This document shows, piece by piece, positions 43,006 to 45,321 of a stretch of 64,000 nt of DNA. This DNA comes from Flavobacterium sp. BFFFF1 (GTDB taxonomy: Bacteria > Bacteroidota > Bacteroidia > Flavobacteriales > Flavobacteriaceae): contig NZ_NKJE01000003.1 in assembly GCF_002256285.1 (NCBI RefSeq), positions 62,001-126,000 of the forward strand, given 5' to 3'. The notes below the pieces were generated by a model, which saw only the letters and a list, made by a program, of their open reading frames with translations, had not been told where the DNA came from and did no database searches. How positions within the stretch are numbered: the first letter of the stretch is position 1; every line of letters starts with the position of its first letter. Both the position numbers and the translations under genes were made by a program.

Positions 43006-43770
43006 ATGATTTTTTTTCCTGACTTTCCGTTGTTTGAAGAACCTGGAAAGGTGCACTACATTTTTGAGTGCCTCGCCTTCGTTGTCGGTATCCGCATCTA
43101 CAATTACCATAGAAAAAGTATCAATGATCCCATCTCTGATAAAAACAGGCTTTTGATATTGTTGGGTGCCGTGCTGGGTGCGTTTCTCGGTTCGAGGTTT
43201 ATTGCCATCCTGGAAGATCCAGGTCGTATTGCCGATTTAAGTCTTCTGGAATTGTATCAAAGCAAAACGATTGCCGGGGGATTTTTAGGAGGCTTATTTG
43301 GGGTTGAGCTCATGAAAAAGGGCATCGGCGTCCGGATTGCGTCCGGAGATGTGTATGTTTTCCCAATCCTGATTGCCGTTTTTATCGGGCGTATCGGCTG
43401 CTTTGTGACAGGAATCAAGGAGCCAACATTCGGCAACCCAACCCATTTTTATTTCGCTATGGACCTGGGTGATGGCATTCCGCGGCATCCGGTGGCGCTT
43501 TACGAAATGTTTTACCTGGCGCTCCTGTATGGGTTGTTTTACGGGATACGGAAGCGAAACCTGATTAACGGCGACCGGTTTAAACTCTTTATGGTGCTTT
43601 ACTTTTTATACCGGTTTTTGGTGGAATTTATCAAACCCTACCATCCCCTTTTTTTAAGGCTTAGCATTATCCATTGGATTTCGCTGTTTCTATTTATCTA
43701 CTATTTCAAATTCCTGAAAAGGATTTTAATCCCTTCCTGTTATGAAAACCAGAGACTACGTTTATTATGA
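43006..43770 (+). CDS. Lgt-family (prolipoprotein diacylglyceryl transferase-like) membrane protein
   Basis: A 254-aa protein with about seven hydrophobic segments. The Lgt signature HPxxLYE appears as [12 protein letters not shown] and the GRIGCF block as [12 protein letters not shown]; canonical Lgt has GRIGNFING here. It lies in an operon with a Tes-like radical SAM gene whose start overlaps it by 29 bases. It may be a paralogue acting on a lipid rather than a prelipoprotein. A canonical lgt gene elsewhere in the genome would support this. Confidence 0.85.
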
Positions 43771-45133
43771 TTACACCAAAAGCATTTGCCCGGACTGCCT
43801 GAAGCTTGCCGACGCGAAGATCGTATTCCAGGATGAAAAGGTATGGATGCTCAAGCATTGCCGGGAGCATGGTGACAGCAAAGTATTGCTCGCCGATGAC
43901 ATTGAATATTATAAACAGATCCGGAACTACAACAAGCAATCTGAAATGCCTTTGAGATTCAATACCAAGGTACACTATGGCTGCCCCTACGACTGTGGTT
44001 TATGTACAGATCACGAGCAACATTCCTGCTTAACAGTGGTTGAAGTCACCGATCGGTGTAACCTTTCCTGCCCGACCTGCTATGCAAACTCAGGACCTAA
44101 TTATGGCAGGCACCGCACTTTAGAAGAAATTGAAAAAATGTTTGATACGGTTGTGGCTAATGAAGGAGCGCCGGATGTAGTTCAGATTTCAGGAGGTGAA
44201 CCGACGGTACATCCCGATTTTTTTAAGATTCTTGACATCGCCAAATCGAAGCCTATTAAGCATTTAATGGTAAACACTAACGGAATCCGTATTGCAAAGG
44301 ATATCCGGTTCGTGGAAAAACTAGCCTCGTACATGCCTGATTTTGAAATTTACCTGCAGTTTGACAGTTTCCGCCCAGAGGTTCTGGAAAAACTCCGTGG
44401 AGAAAACCTGGTCGAAATTCGGCGAAAAGCAATTGAACACCTCAATGCTTTTAACATTTCAACGACGCTGGTAATTACGCTTCAAAAAGGCGAAAATGAC
44501 GACGAGATTGGGGAAATACTCGAATATGCCGTCAGCCAGAAATGTGTCCGCGGCGTGACATTCCAACCGACACAGGTTGCGGGGCGAAATGACAACTATG
44601 ATGACAGTAAGGGCCGTATCACCCTAACCGAAGTCCGCCGTAAAATTTATGAGCAATACCCAATTTTTACACCGCAGGACCTGATTCCGGTACCGTGTAA
44701 CCCCGATGCACTTTGCATGGCGTATGCGTTAAAAATTGACGGAGAAGTAATTCCAATGACGCATTTAATAAACCCGGAGGATCTGCTCAACAATTCTAAA
44801 AACACCATCGTTTTCGAGCATGATGAAAAACTAAAGGAACATATGCTGACGTTATTCAGCACTGGAATTTCGGTTGATTGTGCTGAAGATACGTTCGGTG
44901 AACTGATGTGCTGCCTGCCCAAAGTACAGTCAGAAACTTTGGGCTATGACAATTTATTTCGTATTATTATCATGAATTTCATGGATGCCTATGATTTTGA
45001 CGTCCGTGCGGTAAAAAAATCATGTGTACACATCGTTAGTGATAAGATGAAAATCATTCCGTTCGAAACCATGAATATCTTTTACCGCGAAAACCAGATC
45101 GAAGCAATTAGGAACGAATTAAACAAGATGTAA
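43742..45133 (+). CDS. radical SAM protein resembling archaeal tetraether synthase (Tes)
   Basis: A 463-aa protein. Three cysteine groups: N-terminal CPDC (C16, C19) with C40/H43 in KHCREHG; C81-C85-C88 (CPYDCGLC); and the radical SAM cluster C106-C110-C113 (CNLSCPTC). Further Cys pairs occur at IPVPCNPDALC and LMCCLP. The order TKSICPDC… HCREHG… YGCPYDCGLC… TDRCNLSCPTCYAN matches my recollection of MJ0619, the Methanocaldococcus enzyme that joins lipid tails into tetraethers. QISGGEPTVHP is the SAM-binding GGE motif. Overlaps the Lgt-like gene by 29 bases. Function in Bacteroidota unknown. Confidence 0.85.
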   Translation: MKTRDYVYYDYTKSICPDCLKLADAKIVFQDEKVWMLKHCREHGDSKVLLADDIEYYKQIRNYNKQSEMPLRFNTKVHYGCPYDCGLCTDHEQHSCLTVVEVTDRCNLSCPTCYANSGPNYGRHRTLEEIEKMFDTVVANEGAPDVVQISGGEPTVHPDFFKILDIAKSKPIKHLMVNTNGIRIAKDIRFVEKLASYMPDFEIYLQFDSFRPEVLEKLRGENLVEIRRKAIEHLNAFNISTTLVITLQKGENDDEIGEILEYAVSQKCVRGVTFQPTQVAGRNDNYDDSKGRITLTEVRRKIYEQYPIFTPQDLIPVPCNPDALCMAYALKIDGEVIPMTHLINPEDLLNNSKNTIVFEHDEKLKEHMLTLFSTGISVDCAEDTFGELMCCLPKVQSETLGYDNLFRIIIMNFMDAYDFDVRAVKKSCVHIVSDKMKIIPFETMNIFYRENQIEAIRNELNKM

Positions 45134-45321
45134 TGGAATTTATCGGAATACTCATTTTTTTGATTGTCATCATCAGTCCGCTGTCCGCGGTATTCAGCCT
45201 GATCGTATATTGGGCAACCAAAAATGAAGAAACAAAAAAAGTGGCAATGCGTGTCCTGAATGGCAGTGTAATTGCCTTTGTTATTGGTTTCGGAAGCTGT
45301 GTTGCATTGCTCAATTCCTGA
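45133..45321 (+). CDS. small membrane protein, third gene of the Lgt/Tes-like operon
   Basis: A 62-aa protein with two hydrophobic segments (IGILIFLIVIISPLSAVF and VLNGSVIAFVIGFGSCVALL). Its ATG shares one base with the radical SAM stop codon (TAATG), so it is translationally coupled. I recognise no family. It may be a partner or accessory of the operon. Confidence 0.65.
   Translation: MEFIGILIFLIVIISPLSAVFSLIVYWATKNEETKKVAMRVLNGSVIAFVIGFGSCVALLNS

Follow-up and report, generated by a model that had tools for sequence, protein, structure and literature searches.

A Tes-like radical SAM protein, an Lgt-like membrane protein and a small cysteine-tail protein form a probable functional module

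What does a radical SAM protein that resembles tetraether synthase (Tes) do next to a relative of Lgt in the chromosome of a Flavobacterium? Tes-family enzymes carry out a reaction that ranks among the most difficult in lipid biochemistry, most bacterial members have no known role, and many bacterial Tes homologues have been reported without a function (PMC8941075; PMC9433317). The question was raised by the window, a stretch of 64,000 nucleotides of contig NZ_NKJE01000003.1 of Flavobacterium sp. BFFFF1, in which three genes follow one another on the + strand, to which all feature coordinates in the window refer. The first encodes an Lgt-like integral membrane protein of 254 aa (43006..43770; PF01790 match and AF2 model), the second a Tes-like radical SAM protein of 463 aa (43742..45133; Pfam, NCBIfam, structure model and tree) and the third a small two-span membrane protein of 62 aa (45133..45321). 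The first two genes overlap by 29 bases, and the ATG of the third uses base 45133 in common with the stop of the radical SAM gene. The original prediction, made from the letters and their open reading frames, had the positions and overlaps of the three genes exactly.

The radical SAM protein contains the Pfam domains Zn_ribbon_HMPTM and Radical_SAM. Its cysteines are laid out precisely as first described: C16-P-D-C19 and C40-R-E-H43-G form a rubredoxin-type site, C16-X2-C19-X20-C40-X2-H43 (43787..43870), whose spacing is that of GDGT-MAS; C81-X3-C85-X2-C88 together with H91 forms the N-terminal auxiliary cluster site (43982..44014; alignment); and C106-X3-C110-X2-C113 is the radical SAM cluster motif (44057..44080; Pfam and alignment). 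The rubredoxin motif of M. jannaschii GDGT-MAS is C9X2C12X20C33X2H36, and at the first three metal sites the Cys/His spacing of the window protein equals that published for this enzyme (PMC9433317). In an alignment of 41 sequences, including archaeal Tes and Bacteroidota proteins, the cysteines of all three sites and H91 are invariant and H43 is nearly so. The protein matched the GDGT-MAS PDB entry with E 5.7e-68, and in the alignment of this match M411 was read as the kept Met at the labile Met439 position of GDGT-MAS. An AlphaFold2 model based on 41 homologues (pLDDT 85.6, pTM 0.87; residues 351-398 are unreliable) was compared with solved structures using Foldseek; the best matches were 7tom and 7tol (TM 0.81, E 2e-41), and the next were radical SAM barrels with TM <0.45. 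The protein is predicted from this model to have the GDGT-MAS/Tes fold.

The likeness to Tes that the original prediction proposed is borne out in the fold and at three of the four metal sites, but the identity with Tes did not stand. The radical SAM protein is not a Tes, because its score is below the family cut-off, it lies in another clade and three C-terminal cysteines are absent. A profile comparison with Tes, which had been suggested as a check, went against the proposal, giving 287.4 bits with NF045702 (Tes; curated cut-off 450). The best-scoring named family was NF045646 (TrsS), with 326.7 bits, also below its cut-off (490). All eight tested relatives on the window's side of the tree (8/8) missed both cut-offs; the clostridial protein L183 passes that for TrsS (657.6 bits) and the archaeal L172 that for Tes. 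In a 70-row tree, made as a quick search, the window protein belongs to a 49-row clade apart from the Tes and clostridial TrsS-side proteins, with a support of 99 on both sides. The similarity to TrsS, a radical SAM (seleno)protein, is full-length; however, the window gene has no in-frame stop or selenocysteine, and clostridial TrsS-side loci are without an Lgt-like gene in regions of 5-14 kb. A selenoprotein TrsS reading of the homologue L033 was rejected, its in-frame TGA being taken as a normal stop, since on translation the open frame ends there. The N-terminal part of the radical SAM gene of Clostridium lacusfryxellense (L062:4950-6326) contains an in-frame TAA, and the gene is possibly a broken copy or an assembly error.

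The cysteines that set the window protein apart lie in the C-terminal domain. Three of them are kept in 6/6 Tes and 13/13 TrsS-side or other clostridial proteins (19/19), and the four intermediate branches all have them too. In these columns the window protein has A323, S427 and E442, the first of which adjoins an insertion and is less surely aligned. Two of the replaced Tes/TrsS-side invariant positions, S427 and E442, fall within S427-C428 ... IPF-E442 (45020..45067). Replacement extends to nearly all relatives of two cassette types, A and B, distinguished below by gene order: the three columns hold mostly A/C/S, S and E/D in type A, and R/S, E and S in type B. Other cysteines are characteristic of the Lgt-linked clade. 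C319 (PVPC; 44696..44698), invariant in that clade and variable in Tes according to the alignment columns, and C428 are fixed, and in type A the poorly modelled loop has C390 and C391 as well. These columns suggest that the three lost cysteines served as ligands of a C-terminal cluster, which would have been rebuilt or lost. Compared with Tes/GDGT-MAS (MJ0619; 7tol, 7tom; NF045702), the window protein thus shares the fold, the rubredoxin-type site, the N-cluster Cys3 and His, the radical SAM motif and the Met at the Met439 position, but has A323, S427 and E442 for cysteines, the fixed C319 and C428, and Lgt-like and cysteine-tail partners. A second Tes-like copy in Ktedonosporobacter rubrisoli (L149; G397:C1:2016189-2017544), which has no nearby Lgt-like gene, retains the Tes-type C-terminal cysteines.

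GDGT-MAS uses its C-terminal cluster, and the reaction passes through a bond between a substrate carbon and a cluster sulfur, an intermediate of the C-C coupling (PMC9433317). Since the C-terminal domain of Tes holds the cluster whose sulfur carries this intermediate, tail-to-tail cross-linking by the radical SAM protein cannot be assumed. This bears directly on the reading that the protein is a bacterial Tes or Mss coupling two acyl tails, with the Lgt-like protein processing the head group and the small protein serving as a scaffold. Mss is a bacterial Tes homologue that is thought to join acyl tails and is linked to diabolic acids (PMC13274423); we compared it by its published description. 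Support for such a coupling role comes from the fold, the homology to a lipid enzyme, the three of four metal sites in common with GDGT-MAS, and the fact that bacterial Mss homologues are tied to iso-diabolic acids (PMC13274423). The replaced C-terminal cysteines, the separate clade of the window protein and the Tes/TrsS-side loci, which have neither an Lgt-like partner nor a cysteine-tail gene, all argue against it. We also know of no diabolic acids from Flavobacterium, Hymenobacter or Paenibacillus, which counts on the same side, and we consider the coupling role unlikely. For palaeoclimate work with brGDGTs, bacterial Tes homologues should not be taken as proof of membrane-spanning lipids, since a large Lgt-linked clade appears to have a rebuilt catalytic-cluster region.

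The partnership with the Lgt-like gene was examined in a draw of 393 Bacteroidota genomes, 390 of them of high quality. All of the 31 genomes with this type of radical SAM gene (31/31) have an Lgt-like gene scoring >100 bits, compared with 1/359 of the others (Fisher p 4e-45, ignoring phylogeny). The sole exception in the 390 genomes is an Lgt-like gene (L270:7653-8498) in G017, in which no radical SAM homologue was found. At all but a few of 30 Bacteroidota loci the Lgt-like gene adjoins the radical SAM gene; in G034 and G269 the two are not adjacent and the Lgt-like gene is on another contig. Among 80 named loci from many phyla, 72 have the Lgt-like gene near the radical SAM gene and 7/8 misses are truncated contigs. 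The linkage reaches Bacillota, Cyanobacteria, Acidobacteriota, Chloroflexota and an Actinomycetota plasmid, and no Lgt-like gene was found at the Tes/TrsS-side loci (0/19, regions of 5-14 kb). The pairing pointed out in the original prediction is thus near-obligate across phyla, and the neighbourhood survey that it proposed for the three-gene cluster found a gene order conserved far beyond chance. Neither of the two outcomes that it had set against itself, a best match to another radical SAM family without Tes-type cluster geometry and an absent Lgt-like partner, appeared. The three genes very probably constitute one functional module.

The cassette occurs in different gene orders. In type A, to which the window belongs, the order is Lgt-like, radical SAM, small gene or genes, one type A group having the small gene between both enzymes. 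Type B cassettes (L052, L053, L059-L076 and L092) have a methyltransferase inserted between the two enzyme genes, giving the order radical SAM, ICMT/PEMT-like methyltransferase (PF04140, E 4e-13), Lgt-like, small gene; the methyltransferase is present at 20/21 loci, the single miss being a truncated contig. The distribution is patchy and the flanking genes are variable. G138 belongs to another family, yet its radical SAM protein shows 84% identity while many same-genus copies show 69%; the cassette therefore probably moves horizontally. A simple plasmid origin of the window gene was considered and rejected, since a plasmid search gave nine records of which only that from Persicobacter was close (65%). 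The Mycobacterium avium plasmid pS2b (NZ_CP076860.1, L274:3222-6542) carries, in this order, an Lgt-family gene, two cysteine-tail genes, which end in TAGICTGLNPAMYTWR and SAGYCTGLNPSDYRSY, and a radical SAM gene. A radical SAM protein of 28% identity led to this record once the idea had taken shape, and it is an independent check of the three-part module. G096 (L055) has a third type of cassette, similar to this divergent plasmid one. On haloarchaeal plasmids and in Mycolicibacterium vanbaalenii, Tes-like radical SAM genes lie beside a methyltransferase and not beside an Lgt gene (L272:4986-7354, L273:4998-7161), and are possibly a further unnamed subfamily. Matches in MAGs labelled Patescibacteria, Woesearchaeota, Nanoarchaeota and Thalassarchaeaceae (L060, L068, L074, L076, L126) may be binning errors and were left out of the conclusions.

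The Lgt-like protein belongs to the Pfam LGT family (PF01790, E 1.9e-20) and is far below the cut-offs of both lgt equivalogs (TIGR00544, 24.6 bits versus 118.9; NF000778, 38.4 versus 334). The only PDB match of its AF2 model (pLDDT 91.5) with E below 0.001 is E. coli Lgt 5azb (TM 0.53). A canonical Lgt is encoded separately in the Flavobacterium genome, on contig C36, and all 13 of the cassette genomes examined (13/13) have at least one separate PF01790 gene, a canonical Lgt in nearly all. Residues were compared with those of 14 canonical-type Lgts, using E. coli Lgt numbering. In E. coli, R143, R239 and E243 are among the residues of the lipid-activating site, H103 has been proposed to contribute to the peptide site, and mutation of any one of H103, E151, R143, R239 and E243 leaves the enzyme inactive (PMC4728403). 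The PG-site residues R143, R239 and E243 are kept as R129, R203 (43612..43614; alignment) and E207, the last position being E or D among the Lgt-like proteins. R129 is in the signature region R129-x-G-C132 (43390..43401), where N146 is replaced by Cys, and both R129 and C132 are invariant in 43 Lgt-like proteins. The likeness to Lgt (5azb) thus includes the family, the predicted fold, the lipid-site residues, G154 and the HPxxLYE block; on the other hand, H103 (HGGL), N146 and E151 are lost, the canonical enzyme coexists, and K104, C132, G136 and G155-D156 are newly invariant. Because the lipid-site residues are present and H103, N146 and E151 are gone, the Lgt-like protein has likely kept lipid handling and changed its acceptor side, as judged from these residues.

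The small two-span gene is the third conserved part of the module, a role that is new here and that the original prediction had missed, as it had the likely acceptor in its product. Its second membrane segment ends G-F-G-S-C56 and is followed by a six-residue tail. C56 (45298..45300), the predicted acceptor, is invariant in 13/13 aligned copies, and the pattern recurs in distant cassettes: a C-terminal membrane segment preceded by K/R ends in a cysteine and is followed by 3-24 residues. Positions -4 and -2 relative to the cysteine are most often glycine (GxGxC). There are on average 2.6 K/R before the segment versus 0.34 in the tail, and because of this charge bias the cysteine tail is predicted from sequence to be on the outer side, which is also that of the Lgt active site. 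With a hydropathy cut-off of 1.8, cysteine-tail ORFs make up 94/370 of the neighbouring same-strand small ORFs versus 6/349 on the opposite strand and 65/4658 far away; beside Tes/TrsS-side genes there were 0/36, at the looser cut-off of 1.5. Such an ORF is carried by 78/99 cassette loci, and several of the remaining loci have a cysteine-tail gene by eye, with differing N-terminal regions that are zinc-ribbon or EF-hand-like.

Known uses of such a signal were considered and rejected. A general C-terminal sorting signal does not fit: a profile of the small protein found cassette copies only (E <1e-12, eight genomes), and the protein is for that reason dedicated to the cassette, not genome-wide. 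It resembles bacterial lipoproteins in having a positive flank, a hydrophobic segment and an outer-side cysteine, but its cysteine lies close to the C-terminus, often with a bulky residue at -1, and the tail is just 3-24 residues long. As a canonical lipoprotein ([LVI][ASTVI][GAS]C after an N-terminal signal peptide) it fails by the C-terminal position of the cysteine, and with just 22/87 small proteins matching even a permissive lipobox, processing along the canonical LspA route is improbable.

Another reading is that the small protein serves as a subunit and not as a substrate. It would then be a structural or regulatory part of an Lgt-like/radical SAM complex, with the cysteine binding a metal or redox partner and a free modified lipid as the product. 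The close linkage and membrane location suit such a role, as does the pattern of small residues (G, A, S) that flanks the tail cysteine and suggests packing. The small genes, however, occur as divergent copies in tandem, as many as four in Hymenobacter, with unrelated-looking N-terminal regions, which fit substrates better, and we regard a subunit role as distinctly improbable. The same features, small adjacent tandem genes whose products vary in the N-terminal part and share a conserved C-terminal element, recall RiPP precursors, on which the radical SAM enzyme would install a thioether or C-C link at the cysteine or its neighbours, with the Lgt-like protein acting as anchor or exporter of the product. 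In sactisynthases the cluster region binds the substrate thiolate, and by analogy the rebuilt cluster region could do likewise. Yet no SPASM or peptide-recognition domain was found above cut-off in the radical SAM protein (Pfam, NCBIfam), its nearest structure is a lipid enzyme, and the membrane cysteine is predicted to be outward, away from the cytosolic enzyme, so that a peptide-modifying role seems quite unlikely. The small protein is likely an acceptor.

With the small protein as acceptor, the module suggests an undescribed route to a lipid-modified membrane protein. The cytosolic radical SAM enzyme would take a phospholipid tail into a hydrophobic pocket, abstract a hydrogen from it and modify it; that the enzyme acts on a lipid tail at all is a reading towards which we lean. 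The Lgt-like protein would take the diacylglyceryl group, modified or not, off phosphatidylglycerol or a related lipid and place it on the cysteine of the small protein, its substrate, giving a specialised lipidated membrane protein. The radical step could come before or after attachment. As the Tes-type C-terminal cluster site appears rebuilt, the reaction at the tail may be something other than C-C coupling: C-C linkage would be one candidate beside desaturation, thiolation and C-S linkage. With the radical SAM enzyme cytosolic and the cysteine predicted outside, the steps would have to connect through a lipid that crosses the bilayer. The scheme is weakened by the loss of H103 and E151, which are essential in E. 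coli Lgt, and diacylglyceryl transfer to cysteine is not assured. We therefore put forward the complete scheme, a tail-modifying radical SAM enzyme with Lgt-like transfer of the lipid to the small-protein cysteine, tentatively, as somewhat short of an even chance. A bolder form, which we consider rather doubtful, is a new kind of protein lipidation that crosses phyla, in which a Tes-type enzyme alters a lipid, possibly into a cross-linked or membrane-spanning one, and an Lgt-type enzyme attaches it to the C-terminal membrane cysteine of a tiny protein kept for this purpose; the outcome would be a transmembrane peptide that is permanently lipid-locked.

In a literature search of freely accessible journal papers, we found no description of the Lgt pairing, the cysteine-tail protein or the module. 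With a near-obligate partner and a probable acceptor in hand for the clade, its function is testable in ordinary cultivable genera, the cassette being present in Flavobacterium, Hymenobacter, Mucilaginibacter, Paenibacillus and cyanobacteria. Downstream of the cassette in the window lies a gene for a lipoprotein with a thioredoxin-like domain (45376-46803); since a relative lies 3' of the cassette in only one other examined genome (L035), this gene is probably unrelated to the cassette.
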